From NCBI RefSeq assembly GCF_000377645.1, contig NZ_KB898471.1:248001-312000 (forward strand): 64,000 nt of DNA, read 5' to 3'. Below are positions 15,026-63,842 of the stretch, piece by piece. Position 1 is the stretch's first letter, and the number at the start of each line of letters is the position of its first letter. The notes beneath the pieces were generated by a model, which saw nothing but the letters and a program-made list of their open reading frames with translations, was not told the DNA's origin and made no database searches. Source of the DNA: Thiomonas sp. FB-6 (GTDB lineage Bacteria > Pseudomonadota > Gammaproteobacteria > Burkholderiales > Burkholderiaceae_C). Both the position numbers and the translations under genes were made by a program.

Positions 15026-15808
15026 ATGCTCAGCCTTTCCCGTCGCGGCCTGCTGGCCGCCGCGTCCAGCCTGTGCCTCGCGCTCGCCGCCTGCGGCGGC
15101 GGCACCAGCGGCCAGTACTCCGGCTCGACCCTGGACGGCCAGTTGCTGATGGACGCCGCGGCGCCGGTGACCGGCCCGGGCAACGTGTGCATCTACGGCA
15201 TCGCCAACGGCCAGGGCAACCCGCTGAACACCAACGTCTCGCCGCCGACCAACACCGGCACGCTGCTGACCTCGGGCTGTCTGAACAGCGACGCGCAGGG
15301 CCAGTTCTCCGCGGCGCTGACCAATTTCTACGGGCCGGTGCTGATCCAGATCGTCGGCGGCACCTACACCAGCCACGCCACCGGCGGCGCGGCGGGGCTG
15401 ACCAGCCTGAGCACGACCAACTCCAGCCTGCAGGCCATGGCATTCATCGGCGGCGGCGGCACGGTCAAGGTGCTGGTCACGCCGCTGACCACGATCGCGG
15501 TGGCCATGGCCGGCGCCATGCCCGGCGGCCTGACCATGAGCAACTACCAGACCGCGGCGGCCAAGGTGGCCACCGAATTCCAGCTCGGCGGCGTGAACAT
15601 CACCGGCGCGCCGGCCAGCGGCGACGCGCAGGACCTGGTACTGCGCGGGGTGGAACAGTACCTGTCCTTCTCGCCCGGCGCGAGCGACGACCCCAACGCG
15701 GCCAACCTGCTGAGCTGGAACACCGGCGCGCTGGGCACGATGTCCACGGACTTCACGAGCGCCTACAACACGATCAACGGGACGAGCGCGAGCTTCTCCT
15801 TCTATTGA
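15026..15808 (+). CDS. Predicted lipoprotein of unknown function
   Basis: A 260-residue protein with a clear lipoprotein signal: SRRGLLAAASSLCLALAAC, with the lipobox Cys near residue 23 followed by GGG. The twin-Arg-like SRRGLL may make it a Tat substrate. The mature part is rich in Gly, Thr, Asn, Ser and Ala and low in charge. I recognise no catalytic motif. It lies just after smg and 175 bp before the large c-di-GMP gene, on the same strand. Confidence 0.7.
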   Translation: MLSLSRRGLLAAASSLCLALAACGGGTSGQYSGSTLDGQLLMDAAAPVTGPGNVCIYGIANGQGNPLNTNVSPPTNTGTLLTSGCLNSDAQGQFSAALTNFYGPVLIQIVGGTYTSHATGGAAGLTSLSTTNSSLQAMAFIGGGGTVKVLVTPLTTIAVAMAGAMPGGLTMSNYQTAAAKVATEFQLGGVNITGAPASGDAQDLVLRGVEQYLSFSPGASDDPNAANLLSWNTGALGTMSTDFTSAYNTINGTSASFSFY

Positions 15809-15983
15809 TCGTCACCCGGGCGGCCGCTGCAGGACGCCCGGCCCCTGCGCCCCCCTGAATCCGGGGTGCTGGATTGCGCCGCCGGCGCCCGCGCACTGCC
15901 ACAATGTCGAAATATGTCCGGCGGGCGCATCGGACCGGCCGTGCCGCGGCCGTTGCGCCGGCCGTGTCTCGTTCGCAGCCGCG

Positions 15984-18900
15984 ATGCCCAATCCGCCCGC
16001 CCTGACGCGCTCCCACAGGCTTTCCAGACCGCCGCGATCCCTGCGCGGCGTTGCGGCGTTGGCGGCCCTGCTGCTGTGCGGGGCCTTCTGCGCCAGCGTG
16101 GCCTGGGAATCCTGGCGTGCCACGCGCGAACACGCGCTGAGCACACTGCAGGCCAGCGCCGATGTCTACGCCCAGGATCTGCGCGAGCATCTGGACACGC
16201 GCATTTCGCACCTGCGCCAGATCGCCGCGACCCTGCCGGCCAAGGGCGACGCCTCGGCCTCCCTGCGCCAGGCGCTGCAATTGTGGCCGGACAACAGCAA
16301 CCTGCTGCTGCTCGGCGCCGACGGCCGCGTGCTGGCTTCCGCGCGCCAGCCCGCGGGCTACCCTGGACTGGATCCGCGCCTGGCCCCGGCCACGCGCGAT
16401 GCCTGGCTGGCCTGCGCGGCCGGCGCCGAGCGCTGCGCGCTGCCGCCGGTGCCGGATGCGGCGCGCCCGGGCAGGTGGCTGAGCGCCGAGATGCTTCGCA
16501 TCGCCCAGGATCGCTGGCTGGTGGTGGTGCACCCGCATCTGCTGTCTCCCGCGCTGCAGGCGCTGCTGGCGGCCTACCCGCAGGCGGGCCTGACGGTGGT
16601 GCGCGACGTCGACGGCCTGCCGCAGGTGGGCTACCCGGTCAGCCTGACCCCCTACGGCCAGGCGCAGCGCCTGGACCTGCCGCTGCGCTCTCTGCTGGGC
16701 TCGGGTAGCGGCTCCTACCAGGGCGCTTTGGGCGACCGCGACCAGCGCTCGCTGGGCGCCTGGGTGCGCGTGGACGGACTGCCCTACGTGGTGATCGCCG
16801 CGGTGCCGCGCAGCGCCCTCGTGGCCCGCTGGGCACGCGGCCTGCTGCCCTATGCGGCGCTGCTGCTGGGGCTGGCCCTGATCGCGGGCTGGATGTTCCT
16901 GCTGGAGATGAGGCGCCTGCTGATGTTGCAGAAACGCAACGCACAGGCGATGTTCACCCTGGAGCGCCTGTCCACGCTGCAGAGCTTTCGCGCCCGCACC
17001 CACGAACTGATCGCGGGCGCCGGTGCCGAGCCCGAATTGCTGCGCGACATCTGCGCGGCCGCGGTGGAACTGTGCGGCCTGCGGCTGGCCTGGATCGGGC
17101 GCATCGACGCGCAGGGCCAGCTGCAGGTGGTCGCGGCCGCCGGCGCCACCTCCTACCTGGAAGGCCTGCCGGTGGCCCTGCGCGCGCACGAGGAGCCGGC
17201 CGAGCCCTTCGCCGACGCCTGGCGCGGCGGGCTGGCCCAGTTGCACGACGATCTTGCCGGCCCCGGCAGCACCTGGAGCGGACGCGCGGCCGCGCATGCC
17301 GTACATGCCGCGGCGGCGCTGCCCATCCGGCGCCACGGCCGGCTCGACGCGGTGCTGTCGCTGTACTGGAGCGAGGCGCTGGACTTCGACCCCGAATACG
17401 CCAACGTGCTGCGCGACATGGGCGAGGACATCGGGCGCGGCCTGGAGCGCCTGGACCTGATCGCGGCGCAGCAGGAAGCGCTGAGCGCGCACGAGCGCCA
17501 GGGCGAGCTGATGCGCACGGTGTTTTCGCAGATCGACGTGCTGATCGCCTCGCGCAGCGAAGGCGAACTGCTGGAGACCGCCTGCACGCGCCTGCTCGAA
17601 GGCGGCCTGTTCGCGGCCGCCTGGATCGGCCAGCCCGACGAGGCGGGACGCGTGCACGTGGTGGCCGCGGCCGGCCACGCGCGCGAGACCCTCGACGGCC
17701 TGGAGCTGCGGGTGGAGCACGACGGCGCGGACGCCTTGTCGCGCACCTGGTTCGAGGGGCGGCGCGCGGTGGAAACCGAACCCGATTCGCCGCTGATCCA
17801 GCCCTGGCAGGCCTATGCGCTGGCGGATTGCACGCAGGAGGCGGTCACCCTGCCGCTGCGCCGCTCGGGGCGCCTGTGGGCCATGCTGGTGCTGGTGGCC
17901 ATCGACAGTACCGACCTCGACGCCATCGTGCAGGACACGCTGCTGCGCACCGCCGAGCTGATCAGCCAGGCGCTGACCGAGATCGACCTGAAGCAGCTGC
18001 TGCAGGCGCGCGAGTCGGAACAGGCGCATCTGGCGCGCCACGATGCGCTGACCGGCCTGGCCAACCGCCTGGCGCTGGAGCAGCACCTGCCGCACGCGAT
18101 GGCGCGCGCGCGCCGCGGCGGGCACCAGCTGGCCATCGGCGTGCTCGACCTGGACGACTTCAAACCGGTCAACGACACCTACGGCCACGCGGCGGGCGAC
18201 CGGCTGCTGCAGCAACTGGCCGCGCGCCTGCAGGCGCAGCTGCGCGAGTCCGACCTGCTGGCGCGCCTGGGCGGCGACGAGTTCGTGCTGGTGCTCGACG
18301 AACTCGATGCCGCGCATCCGCGCCAGGTTCTGACCACCGTGCTGGGGCGTCTGCACCGCGCCGTCGAACAGCCCTTCGAGCTCTCCCCGGGGGTGCAGGC
18401 GGAGGTGGGCATGAGCATGGGCCTGGCCCTGTACCCGGAGCACGGCGACGAACCGGATTCGCTGCTGCGCCAGGCCGACGGCGCGCTGTACGCCGCCAAG
18501 GGCGCCAAGGCGCGGCGCCAGCGCTGGTGGCTGCTCAGCGGCGAACAGGTGGACGATGCCCAGCAGACCGAGCTCGAGCCCTACGGCGAGGAAGCCGCCG
18601 AACTGCTGGAGAAGGTGCAGTCGGAACTGGCCCAGGTGGACGAGGAATTCCTGGAGGCCTACTGGCTCCAGATGGCACCCGACAGCGCCAATGCGCGCAT
18701 CGTCGCCATCCTGACGGACGAGGAGCTGCTGGGACTGAAGGCCCACCAGACGCGCCATCTGCGCGGCCTGCTGGCCCCGCGGCTGCAGCGCCAGGAGCAG
18801 GAAAGCGCGGCGCTGCGCCTGGGGCGCGTGCACGCGATGATCGGCGTGGACAGCGCTGCGGCGATGGACACGCTGAGCCAGTACGGCGCCGCGCTGCAGC

Positions 18901-20810
18901 GCGCCACGCAGCGCCTGCCCCTGCGCCTGGACGCCCGCGTGCGCCTGCAGACCCTGCTGCAGCAGCGCCTGAGCCTGGACCTGCACGCCATGCAGCGCGG
19001 CGCGCTGGAGGTGCAGCACCAGCGCCAGGCCCATCTGGCGGCCATGGAATCGCGCCTCGACGCCTGGGAGCAATCGGGGCAGTTGCCGCGCCACGTGGTG
19101 GCCCACCTCGGAGATCTGCCAGGGGTCTGCGGCGTGGCCTGCGGACGCCCCGACGCCGACAACCGCTACGTGCTGGAGTTCGGGCATGGCGAGGCGCAGG
19201 GCTACCTGCAGGCGCTGCGCGACGCCGGGATGGACCTGGATTTCCGGCGCGGGGCGCTGGAACGCCCGGGCGCCACCCAGCGCGCGTGGACCAGCGGAGC
19301 CATCTCCACCGATGCCAACGAACTCGCGGTGCCGCAATTCGCCCCCATCGCGAGCCAGTTCGGAGTGCGCAGCGTGGCGGCGATCCCGCTGCTCGACCGC
19401 CACGGGCACGTGCACCAGGTGATCACGCTGCTGGGGCGCCACCCGGGCCAGTTCGAGGCGCCGGCCATGCGCATGTGGCTGGAGTCGGCGCAGCACCACC
19501 TGGGGCCGGCCTTCCAGCGCGCGCTGGGCGGCCCGACCCAGCAACCCATCGCGGCCACGCGGCGCAGCCGCCTGCACGACCTGCTGTACGGCGGCGGGCT
19601 GCGCCTGCACGTGCAGCCGCTGGTCAACCTGGTCACCGGGCAGCCCGACGAAGTGGAGGTGCTGGCGCGCCTGCAGGACGGCGACAACGTGCTCATGCCC
19701 GGCGCCTTCCTCGAAGCCTTCGGCAACCACGAACTGCGCATCCTGTTCCGCAAGGGCCTGGAGCTGACGCTGCACTGGCTGCGCACCTGGGAGGCGCAGG
19801 GCCTGCACCTGGGCGCCAGCCTCAACCTGCCGCCCAGCGTGCTGATGGATCCCGAGTGCCCGCAATGGATCGCGCAGGCGCTCGAGCACAGCCGCGTGGA
19901 CGCGGCGCGCCTGCACCTGGAACTGCTGGAGAGCCACGAGGACCAGTTCGACAGCGAGCGCCGCGACGAGGCCATCGCCAGCCTGTCGCGCCTGGGCGTG
20001 CGCCTGATCATGGACGACCTGGGCTCGGGCTACAGCAGCCTGCGGCGCATGCGCAGCCTGCCCTTCCACACCGTGAAGATCGACCAGCACATCGTGCAGC
20101 AGGCCCAGGACGAGCCGGTGAAGACCATCGCCTTCGTCGGCGCGCTGGTGCGCATGGCGCAGGGCCTGAACATGCAGGTGACCATGGAAGGGCTGGAAAG
20201 CCCCGACCTGGTGGAGATGGCGCTGGCGCTGGGGGTGGAGCGCGGCCAGGGCTACGCGCTGGCGCGTCCGATGCCGGCCGAACATTTCGCCGCCTGGGCA
20301 CACCAGTGGCACTGGGAGCTCGACGCCGGAAGCCCCGACACCGCGCTGGGGCGCCAGGCGCTGCTGTACAGCCGCGACATCGCGCCGCTGGACTGGCAGC
20401 GCATCATCGTGTCCCACCAGCAGTACCGCGACGCGCTGATGCGCAGCCTCGACGGGCAGGGCACGCCGCTGCAGTGGCGCGTGGTGTGCCGCGACGACGC
20501 CTGCCTGCTCGGGCGCTGGATGCGGCGCCACGCCGACACCATCTGGCCGTCCACGCGGCCGGTGTTCCTGCGCGCGCAGCAGTTGCATACCGAATTCCAC
20601 CGCCAGGCCGGCGAATTGCTGCGCGAGGCCGAGGAGTCACACCGCCCCGACCGCGCGATGGCCGAGCTCGCCGCCGGCACGCTGGACCGCGCTTCCGACC
20701 GCCTGGTGCGCGCGCTGCACCAGCTCAGCTGGACGATCGGCGCGGCGGGCGAGCACGACGAGGCCGCGGAACCCGCCGAGCAGGCCGCGAAGGCGCGTCT
20801 TCAGGCCTGA
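15984..20810 (+). CDS. Multi-sensor c-di-GMP protein: membrane sensor, GAF-GAF-GGDEF-globin-GAF-EAL-CZB
   Basis: A 1608-residue hybrid. Two membrane helices (about 21-43 and 285-307) flank a periplasmic sensor. Two GAF-like domains (about 339-490 and 509-680) precede a GGDEF domain with an intact GGDEF (763-767) and an RESD inhibitory site five residues before it. Residues ~850-1020 resemble the globin-coupled-sensor fold, with Tyr893 (EAYWLQM) and His950 (LGRVHAMIGV) placed like the distal Tyr and proximal His of DosC. A further GAF-like region (~1036-1180) leads to an EAL domain with EVL at 1225-1227 but with DD 1344-1345, an NLPPS segment and EGLES kept. The C-terminus is a CZB zinc-binding domain (His1478, Cys1507, His1535, His1539). 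Domain names are inferred from motifs. Confidence 0.85.
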   Translation: MPNPPALTRSHRLSRPPRSLRGVAALAALLLCGAFCASVAWESWRATREHALSTLQASADVYAQDLREHLDTRISHLRQIAATLPAKGDASASLRQALQLWPDNSNLLLLGADGRVLASARQPAGYPGLDPRLAPATRDAWLACAAGAERCALPPVPDAARPGRWLSAEMLRIAQDRWLVVVHPHLLSPALQALLAAYPQAGLTVVRDVDGLPQVGYPVSLTPYGQAQRLDLPLRSLLGSGSGSYQGALGDRDQRSLGAWVRVDGLPYVVIAAVPRSALVARWARGLLPYAALLLGLALIAGWMFLLEMRRLLMLQKRNAQAMFTLERLSTLQSFRARTHELIAGAGAEPELLRDICAAAVELCGLRLAWIGRIDAQGQLQVVAAAGATSYLEGLPVALRAHEEPAEPFADAWRGGLAQLHDDLAGPGSTWSGRAAAHAVHAAAALPIRRHGRLDAVLSLYWSEALDFDPEYANVLRDMGEDIGRGLERLDLIAAQQEALSAHERQGELMRTVFSQIDVLIASRSEGELLETACTRLLEGGLFAAAWIGQPDEAGRVHVVAAAGHARETLDGLELRVEHDGADALSRTWFEGRRAVETEPDSPLIQPWQAYALADCTQEAVTLPLRRSGRLWAMLVLVAIDSTDLDAIVQDTLLRTAELISQALTEIDLKQLLQARESEQAHLARHDALTGLANRLALEQHLPHAMARARRGGHQLAIGVLDLDDFKPVNDTYGHAAGDRLLQQLAARLQAQLRESDLLARLGGDEFVLVLDELDAAHPRQVLTTVLGRLHRAVEQPFELSPGVQAEVGMSMGLALYPEHGDEPDSLLRQADGALYAAKGAKARRQRWWLLSGEQVDDAQQTELEPYGEEAAELLEKVQSELAQVDEEFLEAYWLQMAPDSANARIVAILTDEELLGLKAHQTRHLRGLLAPRLQRQEQESAALRLGRVHAMIGVDSAAAMDTLSQYGAALQRATQRLPLRLDARVRLQTLLQQRLSLDLHAMQRGALEVQHQRQAHLAAMESRLDAWEQSGQLPRHVVAHLGDLPGVCGVACGRPDADNRYVLEFGHGEAQGYLQALRDAGMDLDFRRGALERPGATQRAWTSGAISTDANELAVPQFAPIASQFGVRSVAAIPLLDRHGHVHQVITLLGRHPGQFEAPAMRMWLESAQHHLGPAFQRALGGPTQQPIAATRRSRLHDLLYGGGLRLHVQPLVNLVTGQPDEVEVLARLQDGDNVLMPGAFLEAFGNHELRILFRKGLELTLHWLRTWEAQGLHLGASLNLPPSVLMDPECPQWIAQALEHSRVDAARLHLELLESHEDQFDSERRDEAIASLSRLGVRLIMDDLGSGYSSLRRMRSLPFHTVKIDQHIVQQAQDEPVKTIAFVGALVRMAQGLNMQVTMEGLESPDLVEMALALGVERGQGYALARPMPAEHFAAWAHQWHWELDAGSPDTALGRQALLYSRDIAPLDWQRIIVSHQQYRDALMRSLDGQGTPLQWRVVCRDDACLLGRWMRRHADTIWPSTRPVFLRAQQLHTEFHRQAGELLREAEESHRPDRAMAELAAGTLDRASDRLVRALHQLSWTIGAAGEHDEAAEPAEQAAKARLQA

Positions 20811-62446: not shown

Positions 62447-62461
62447 CCGGGCCTTGCCCGG
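62447..62461. repeat. GC hairpin after tdh (CCGGGC-CTT-GCCCGG)
   Basis: A perfect 6-bp stem with a 3-base loop lies 15 bp after the tdh stop. No T-tract follows, so it may be a weak or Rho-assisted terminator or a REP-like element. Confidence 0.45.
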
Positions 62462-62465
62462 CCCG

Positions 62466-62478
62466 CCCCCCGAGGGGG
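62466..62478. repeat. Second GC hairpin (C-run/G-run)
   Basis: CCCCCCGAGGGGG directly follows the first hairpin. The stem pairs 62466-62469 with 62475-62478. The two hairpins together resemble intergenic stem-loops common in GC-rich Burkholderiales. Confidence 0.4.
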
Positions 62479-62624
62479 TCAGACCTCAAGCGGCGCCCAC
62501 TTGCGTCGTTGTTGTGCCTGCAGGGCGTGCAAGCCCCGTTGCATCGCGCTTGGTCGCGCGGAGCCGCATGATGAGCGGCTCTCCGAAGGCATCGGCGCAC
62601 AATGCATGGCCACGAGGTGCAACG

Positions 62625-63842
62625 ATGGAAAGCGCGATCCGCTCCGGCCTGGAACAGGCCTTTCTCAGCATGGAAACCCTGGAGCTGCTGGCCGAGCCGG
62701 CCGGCGGCTTCGCCGTGTTCCACGCCAACCCCGCCGCGCGCAATACCGTGGCCCGCTTCGGCCCCATGTTCCGGCAGGCCGTGGGCGAGGGCTTCGACCC
62801 CCAGGCGCTGGAGGGCCTGCAGCTGGCACGCCTGCTGGGCCCGGGCACGCAGGAGCGGCTGGCTGCCGTGGCCGCCGGCCAGGCCGAGCAGTTTCACGCG
62901 CAGCTCGAGGTGGGCAGCTTCCTGTTCTCGGCCACGATCGCGCCGATCCGCGACCCGCAGGGCATGCCCATGTGCCTGCATGCCAGCCTGCGCAACATCT
63001 CGGCACGCCGCGAGGCGGTGGAGGTCAACGACCGGCTCAAGGACATCCTCGGCTCGCTGGTCAAGGCCGAGACCGAGGTGAGCCAGTCCATGGAGGCGGT
63101 GGACGGCGCCGTCGGGGTGGTCAAGGACGCCATCGCCGACAACTCCCAGGCGGTGAAGACCCTGCTGGGCCAGGTGGGCACGATCTCCACCCTGGTGCAG
63201 AGCATCCGCGAGATCTCCTACCAGACCAACCTGCTGGCGCTCAACGCCGCCATCGAGGCCGCGCGCGCCGGCGAGGCCGGGCGCGGTTTCGCGGTGGTCG
63301 CCGACGAGGTGCGCAACCTGGCCCGGCGCGTGCACGACGCCACCCTGAGCATCGAAGGCCACACCGAGCAGATCGACGAACAGACCCTGCGCATCGCCAC
63401 CACCAGCGAGAGCACCGGGCGTCAATTGGGCGCCGTCGACACCGTGGTGGCCCGCCTGCAAGGCCAGGTGCGGGACATGCAGCGCCTGGCCACCCGCGCC
63501 TTGCTGCGCTCCGCCGAGGAGGACCACCGCAATTTCGTGATCCAGATCCTCGCCGAGGCCGACGGCCAGCCGCCGCAGCTGCAGGCCGCCCAGGTGCCGG
63601 ACCATCACCAATGCAGCTTCGGCCAGTGGTACGACGGCCGTGGCCGCGAAGCCCACGCCGCGCTGCCGGCCTTCCAGGCCATCGAGGCGCCGCACGCCCG
63701 GGTGCACGCGCTGGCCCGGGATCTGCTGGCCGCCGCCCACGAGGGACGGCGCGCACAGGCCTCCGAACTCACCGCGCGCCTGCTCGAAGCCCAGGGCGAG
63801 ATCGGCGCCGCGTTGCGCGCGCTCAACCAGGGCCTGCGCTGA
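62625..63842 (+). CDS. Soluble methyl-accepting chemotaxis-type protein with PAS-like and CZB domains
   Basis: A 405-residue cytoplasmic chemoreceptor without membrane helices. An N-terminal PAS-like region (to about residue 130) is followed by the MCP signalling hairpin, with the tip [19 protein letters not shown] and [13 protein letters not shown]. The C-terminus is a CZB zinc-binding domain with His301, Cys330 (QCSFGQWY), His357 and His361. GAGGT precedes the ATG at 62625. CZB receptors such as TlpD respond to zinc or oxidants like hypochlorous acid. No che genes are in the window. Confidence 0.87.

Follow-up and report, generated by a model that had tools for sequence, protein, structure and literature searches.

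What does a globin do when it sits in the middle of a protein that carries both a domain for making c-di-GMP and a domain for breaking it down? Sensor globins of c-di-GMP enzymes are described as N-terminal, at least in the sections available to us of two papers on the subject (PMC8846402, PMC5549716), and a gene of Thiomonas sp. FB-6 breaks this usual description. It lies in a window of 64,000 nucleotides, the whole stretch of DNA that was analysed, and all positions below are those of the window; all features with coordinates lie on its plus strand. The open reading frame at 15984–20810 was confirmed. It encodes 1608 amino acids, which Pfam, codon-position GC and orthologues together support as a chain of transmembrane helix, sensor, transmembrane helix, GAF, GAF, GGDEF, globin, GAF, EAL and CZB. 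The GC fractions at the three codon positions are 0.785, 0.473 and 0.926, as expected, and since orthologues exist as well, this is a real gene and a chance reading frame can be discarded. Of the 28 genus genomes, the strain's own included, 20 carry a full or partial orthologue with 58–92% identity. When 60 genomes were searched, with at most eight candidates scored in each and with the own genome and paralogues counted, each of the 28 genus genomes had a match with E ≤ 1e-50, and the remaining 32 had no such match. The relatives kept for comparison are the best 80 of 577; the closest include two fragments of a single Thiomonas sp. MAG (86% and 90%) and proteobacterial MAGs (91%). An antisense reading frame of equal length is found at 15774–20600, and is taken as a by-product of the 73% G+C.

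A sequence-only reading had named these modules in this order, and Pfam, profiles and models bear it out, one of the GAF domains sitting between globin and EAL. Our preferred explanation, to which we give a probability of roughly 0.55, is that two half-modules make up a bifunctional c-di-GMP enzyme, a membrane-anchored cyclase being fused to a globin-coupled phosphodiesterase. The N-terminal half would be a membrane-anchored diguanylate cyclase, consisting of a periplasmic sensor, two GAF domains and a GGDEF domain whose product-inhibition site is intact. The C-terminal half would be the globin-coupled phosphodiesterase, with globin, long helix, GAF, EAL and a CZB tail.

The N-terminal half begins with two hydrophobic helices recognised by hydropathy, at amino acids 19–43 (16038–16112) and 283–310 (16830–16913). 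They frame a presumed periplasmic sensor of about 240 amino acids (44–282; 16113–16829), whose topology is deduced from these two helices. No Pfam family matches the sensor above its cut-off, dCache_1 (E 0.007) and CSS-motif (E 0.09) both falling below. The first GAF domain (350–488; 17031–17447) is found by PF13185 (GAF_2); the second, at about 520–664 (17541–17975), is a second PF13185 stretch that PF13492 also matches below cut-off (527–664, E 0.002). The GGDEF diguanylate cyclase domain (684–843; 18033–18512) is matched by PF00990 at E 1e-43. Its GGDEF motif (763–767) is intact and its RxxD inhibitory site (R754, D757) is kept; these, together with D722 and K727, are kept unchanged in all 20 orthologous rows.

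In the C-terminal half, the EAL phosphodiesterase domain (1197–1429; 19572–20270) is matched by PF00563, also at E 1e-43. E1225, N1281, E1313, D1344, D1345, K1365, E1402 and Q1422 are kept in all orthologous rows that cover the position in question (18 or 19). Such row counts, here and above, take in overlapping fragments of some genes of the own genome and the two fragments of the Thiomonas MAG; the set of 93 globin-GAF-EAL proteins used below gives a cleaner residue count. The roles assigned to these residues are those of the known EAL motifs. With the checked catalytic residues of both domains kept, synthesis and breakdown of c-di-GMP are both predicted for the one chain, in line with what had been proposed for it. 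Many hybrid GGDEF-EAL proteins have one active domain only, which gives the alternative that survives best, still an unlikely one: one of the enzyme domains may be silent, so that the protein would act either as a phosphodiesterase whose GGDEF binds GTP in a regulatory role or as a cyclase whose EAL is inactive. The EAL signature itself is consistent with this, as it reads EVL here and EAL in 88 of 96 paralogue rows. The residues checked for metal and substrate binding are nevertheless conserved in the orthologues in both domains, and the retained RxxD site likewise argues against a silent domain.

The region between GGDEF and EAL might have been an ordinary linker, which would have left the sequence-only reading without its globin. 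It is predicted instead to fold as a globin and a GAF, and the linker is thereby ruled out. Pfam Protoglobin (PF11563) matches residues 870–1003 just under its cut-off (23.9 bits, cut-off 25), with E-values of 0.0013 (whole protein) and 4.7e-5 (segment); the domain as a whole is placed at 863–1009 (18570–19010). A profile of residues 845–1196 aligned with 62 relatives (63 sequences) found 11 PDB sequences at E ≤ 1, of which the top three are sensor globins, namely Tlr1989 (2.4e-5), HemAT (2.6e-4) and a Geobacter globin-coupled sensor (1e-3), with the proximal histidines in register between the profile and all three. Below these come a GAF structure, 3p01 (0.003), an anti-anti-sigma factor (0.015) and AfGcHK (0.024), and the five weakest matches are taken as chance. 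The predicted model of the globin-GAF segment (mean pLDDT 89.1, pTM 0.84) has globin helices, then a 50-residue helix (segment residues 138–187), then the alpha/beta strands of a GAF from 204. Compared by VIA-align, the globin part reaches Z 16.0 to 2w31, 15.9 to 5ohe, 15.3 to DosC (4zvb), 15.2 to BpeGReg (6m9a) and 14.9 to HemAT (1or4), over 139–142 residues of these five solved sensor globins. The 50 Foldseek matches listed for the same model are filled by GAFs and phytochromes, so the evidence for the globin fold comes from VIA-align. Family profiles, conserved residues and predicted fold thus all support the globin identity. The third GAF domain (1010–1188; 19011–19547) has a Pfam match below cut-off (E 0.006 for the segment alone), and its model reaches a VIA-align Z of up to 16.5 to fRMsr/GAF structures. 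In the model, the junction between globin and third GAF is one continuous helix (982–1031). The globin therefore stands after the GGDEF and before a GAF-EAL unit, not at the N-terminus of the protein, as had been noticed from the sequence.

How is such a globin wired? Relatives are informative here. Fourteen of the 37 EAL proteins in the own genome contain globin-GAF-EAL according to our own profiles for globin, GAF, GGDEF and EAL, whose calls are partly by construction because the alignment behind them holds many of the proteins called. Pfam finds the protoglobin in nine of the 14, eight times above cut-off; the globins at L160, L165, L169 and L170 and in the second gene at L163 are called by our own profile alone. 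A GGDEF lies directly before the globin in ten of the 14, six of these with a Pfam protoglobin, and is absent in four (at L116, L118, L166 and L170; Pfam too gives three of these). The globin of these GGDEF-less proteins starts at residue 34–46 of the open frame in three and at 148 in the fourth. Caballeronia WP_244817502.1 also has globin-GAF-EAL without GGDEF, the match beginning at residue 12 of 706. Because the unit exists without a GGDEF both in the own genome and in Caballeronia, the globin is best read as the sensor of the C-terminal GAF-EAL. The modules and their order thus stand as proposed in the sequence-only reading, but the globin is better seen as belonging to the GAF-EAL than as oddly wired to the cyclase. 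In the own genome there is also one gene of the classic globin-GGDEF type (L193).

The two-half explanation would work as follows. A change of ligand or redox state at the globin haem would move the long helix and, by way of the third GAF, switch the EAL domain, while the CZB would set or override the EAL output in response to zinc or an oxidant. The GGDEF would be driven by the periplasmic and GAF inputs, a short linker with a conserved Trp-Trp would couple the two halves, and the net c-di-GMP output would weigh the outside signal against the gas/redox and zinc signals. We infer the directions of all these effects from sequence and predicted models. As for origin, a globin-coupled phosphodiesterase may have been fused to the C-terminal side of a GGDEF; copies of the product would then have multiplied with differing N-termini, and the CZB tail would be a further input added at the C-terminus. 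This is the simplest account of the family. In a quick tree with midpoint root, three of the four GGDEF-less proteins form a group of their own, and the fourth (L168) is nested among the fused ones on a long branch with support 85. As the root is a midpoint only, the direction of the first fusion step is one that we infer.

The same architecture was looked for in other genomes, and GGDEF-globin-GAF-EAL was found by our own profiles at least once in 76 of 80 loci, 79 proteins in all, a share that is biased upward because the loci, from titled records among the best of the 577 relatives, were retrieved with the query itself. The 80 loci include that of Thiomonas delicata DSM 16361, where Pfam too sees this layout, and that of T. 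bhubaneswarensis DSM 18181. Others come from Tibeticola sediminis DSM 101684 and from MAGs labelled Ferrovum, Rhodanobacter and Halothiobacillus. Pfam gives no protoglobin at E ≤ 0.1 in L030 or in L049, the Tibeticola locus, where our own profile places one. With ten such proteins in the own genome and 79 in these loci, a unique architecture is rejected.

The presence of the fused form in 76 of the 80 loci retrieved with the query suggests that the globin couples to the GGDEF side too, as does the linker between the two domains (18516–18575), where W849 is invariant and W848 is present in at least 90% of a 63-row alignment. The globin could then be a shared switch, one ligand state favouring GGDEF and another EAL. 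Opposite control of this kind by O2 and NO is possible, as DcpG demonstrates in the part of the paper available to us (PMC10882959). We regard a shared switch as rather doubtful, since the linker is predicted with low confidence (pLDDT 52–60), whereas the join of globin and GAF is one helix, and since globin-GAF-EAL occurs in other proteins where there is no GGDEF to be switched. The low pLDDT comes from a model made without the GGDEF, and may be due to its absence.

The two-half explanation also gives a place to the CZB domain, at residues 1467–1587 (20382–20744). Pfam CZB (PF13682) matches 1478–1545 with E-values of 4.5e-4 (whole protein) and 2.2e-5 (segment), and the scores of 25.2 bits (segment) and 26.8 bits (genome search) are just under the cut-off of 29.4. 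It is above cut-off in four of 20 orthologous copies, these 20 being those matched by the model at E ≤ 0.001 and one of the four only with its neighbours in frame. The putative zinc ligands, H1478, C1507, H1535 and H1539 (three His and one Cys), are kept in all 18 orthologous rows that reach the CZB, and the Cys motif is present, with C1507 in CLLGRW and Gly at position 4. Zinc binding is predicted from these residues. The model of the tail has a mean pLDDT of 75 (81–93 over segment residues 51–150), and VIA-align places the CZB of DgcZ (3t9o) first, aligning 115 of 120 residues at Z 11.9. Unrelated bundles follow at 9.8 and below. Chance scores tend to be high for helical bundles, and 11.9 is under the level of about 13 taken as safe for them. 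Foldseek with the CZB model gave nothing at E ≤ 0.001 (best E 0.88). A profile of the orthologous CZB matches the CZB of an own-genome chemoreceptor with 69% probability over 76 columns. Sequence and model together thus give the CZB identity good but not final support, less firm than that of the globin. As was expected from the sequence, both globin and CZB are matched in a domain search, just under their cut-offs, with profiles, residues and folds in support.

It is worth noting that at the C-terminus of many paralogues stands a shorter Cys/His domain (CPLTxFL ... WHxxVH). A profile-profile comparison of this short tail with the orthologous CZB gives a probability of 7% and E 0.005, with the Cys and the HxxxH in register, and Pfam has no name for four such tails. 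Given this weak match and the silence of Pfam, we do not accept a CZB in most relatives. Among the 79 GGDEF-globin-GAF-EAL proteins, nine have a tail of the orthologous CZB type and 52 one of the short type. The alignment behind the CZB model contains 19 rows of the short type out of 29, which may have weakened the model.

What the globin would sense depends on its haem pocket. Haem binding is predicted from the proximal residue H950 (18831–18833), which aligns with the haem-ligand histidine of HemAT, the motif GRVHAMIG lying opposite the HemAT motif. All 20 orthologous rows other than the query keep it, at identities down to 58%. Across 93 globin-GAF-EAL proteins the proximal position is H in 84, Q in five, L in three and N in one; in the own genome it is lost in three of the 14 (Q at L160 and L161, L in the second gene at L163), so not every globin of the family can be an ordinary haem sensor. 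On the distal side, alignment places W894 (18663–18665) at the position of the Tyr in the HemAT FY motif and in Phe42-Tyr43 of EcGReg. Tyr is found there in 67 of the 93, and Trp in the query and nine of the ten other orthologues in that set. A wider set of orthologues has 15 rows with Trp and five with Tyr out of 20 besides the query. The five Tyr rows are the most diverged (59–62% identity), so the change from Tyr to Trp arose inside the orthologous group. In EcGReg, Tyr43 stabilises bound O2, according to the part of the paper available (PMC5549716). With this Tyr replaced, O2 sensing cannot be assumed, and our claim is limited to a globin of the globin-coupled-sensor type, with no membership of the O2 sensors. 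No mention of Y43W was found in the literature among the matches listed. His921 occupies an aligned position in the distal helix.

A more speculative reading builds on this pocket. The proteins could be a lineage-specific family in which a mid-chain globin lets one gas signal uncouple or reverse the membrane response; the Tyr-to-Trp pocket would be re-tuned, with His921, so that a ligand other than O2 (NO or redox) drives c-di-GMP breakdown, and the CZB would add a zinc or oxidant veto, making the protein an integrator of three inputs. We consider this improbable. Weakest of all is the idea that the globin is a structural relic without haem, or binds haem without sensing gas, so that the module is a dimerisation spacer; the distal Trp (in 10 of 11 orthologous rows with the query included, and in 15 of the 20 others in the wider set) and the nine of 93 family members without proximal His speak for it, but the invariance of H950 in the orthologues and the 84 relatives with His make it very unlikely.

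Returning to the two-half enzyme, several known systems come close to it. In the sections seen of a survey of Acidithiobacillia, protoglobin is reported in 80 and CZB in 62 of 387 GGDEF-EAL proteins (PMC6416229). The same survey describes AFE_1712 of A. ferrooxidans, another iron/sulphur acidophile, as 'Protoglobin-GGDEF-EAL-CZB', the same four domain types in one chain. Compared by this description only, AFE_1712 differs in that the published notation puts the protoglobin first, and the available text names no membrane sensor, whereas the Thiomonas protein has one (PMC6416229). DosC and BpeGReg share the globin fold and the proximal His ligand. Unlike here, their globin is N-terminal to the GGDEF, connected via a middle domain, and has the distal Tyr43, as far as the part seen of the source goes (PMC5549716). 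The logic of the C-terminal half is that of Chp1 (AZC_0308) of Azorhizobium, a characterised protoglobin phosphodiesterase that is listed as activated by O2 (PMC8846402). DcpG of Paenibacillus resembles our protein in having globin, GGDEF and EAL in one chain, and its opposing activities are controlled by gas (PMC10882959, seen in part). Fusion of CZB to c-di-GMP enzymes is likewise known from DgcZ and the EAL-CZB proteins; according to the text available, EAL-CZB makes up 3.4% of 10,140 CZB proteins and GGDEF-EAL-CZB is a listed subgroup (PMC8262984). DgcZ is unlike the present protein in that its CZB is N-terminal and its only enzyme domain is GGDEF. The order is different again in DcpG, where the globin is N-terminal and the chain runs globin-GGDEF-EAL, with, to our knowledge, no GAFs, membrane sensor or CZB; here it runs GGDEF-globin-GAF-EAL.

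Already in print are therefore the globin cyclases, Chp1, DcpG, EAL-CZB, GGDEF-EAL-CZB and the bare set 'Protoglobin-GGDEF-EAL-CZB'. The order had been thought unlike that of characterised families, and this holds in part: among the matches listed from the open-access literature, in the text available, no published description of a GGDEF-globin-EAL order was found, but the architecture is not unique, and its bare domain set is published for Acidithiobacillus. As far as these searches show, what is new is the mid-chain globin with its own GAF, the copy number within one genome and across the genus, and the Trp pocket found in the orthologous group. The 28 genomes of the genus have 1–15 Pfam protoglobin matches each (median 8.5). 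In a sample of 150 genomes of the order, protoglobin is found in 45, with ten in the own genome, eight in one other, five in another and one to three in the rest, giving a range of 1–8 in the 44 other protoglobin-bearing genomes. A survey of the phylum with the globin-GAF profile gave the own genome as the sole match among 398 at E ≤ 1e-20, but as the best five candidates per genome were scored, this does not establish absence elsewhere. The Thiomonas genome paper of 2010 describes an island rich in GGDEF and EAL proteins, and the word globin is absent from the part of the text available (PMC2829063).

Acid mine drainage, in which Thiomonas is known to occur (PMC2829063), is a setting where O2, metals and mineral surfaces change within short distances, and many gas-linked c-di-GMP enzymes could time attachment in such bacteria. 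Separable halves would make the choice between GGDEF and EAL in hybrid proteins directly testable, with the natural His-to-Gln and His-to-Leu paralogues serving as controls. The neighbouring genes are a putative dprA, smg and a lipoprotein, followed by MarR and an MFS pump; together these neighbours give no clear functional hint. The lipoprotein-like gene lies directly upstream (15026–15808) in 13 of 14 orthologous loci, and its product is a possible periplasmic partner of the 1608-residue protein.

A lipoprotein-like gene to which Pfam assigns no family lies immediately 5' of the ORF (window 15026-15808, plus strand). It adjoins the ORF upstream in 13 of the 14 orthologous loci, with 55-82% identity; in the 14th the contig begins within the ORF. 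The product is a possible periplasmic partner of the query's sensor. That sensor also occurs elsewhere in the genome: a GGDEF-EAL protein (L141, C1:487957) has it, matching query residues 28-289 at 35% identity. In Pfam the sensor region of L141 matches no family, as is the case for the query's own. On the opposite strand, an antisense open frame (15774-20600, minus strand) has 1608 codons, exactly the length of the ORF, and is taken as an artefact arising from high G+C.

The window also holds the gene of an MCP chemoreceptor with a signalling domain and a C-terminal CZB (62454-63842, plus strand; CZB E 9e-14). According to PMC8262984, species seem to have either CZB chemoreceptors or CZB cyclases, not both; unlike that pattern, this genome seems to carry the two together. 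In 52 of 79 relatives (from the best 80 of 577), the EAL is followed by a short C-terminal Cys/His domain (GALAYHW...CPLTxFL...WHxxVH), seen in L086, L097, L064 and L112 among others. Compared with CZB it shows a weak likeness, a Pfam search with four such tails returned no family name, and it may be an undescribed metal-binding domain.

The proximal His of the globin is kept in 11 of the 14 own-genome globin-GAF-EAL proteins and lost in paralogues L160 (Q), L161 (Q) and L163 (L), which would be natural degenerate sensors. At L163 (C9:42000-51000) two GGDEF-globin-GAF-EAL frames of 1398 and 806 codons stand in tandem, followed by a third open frame with an EAL.
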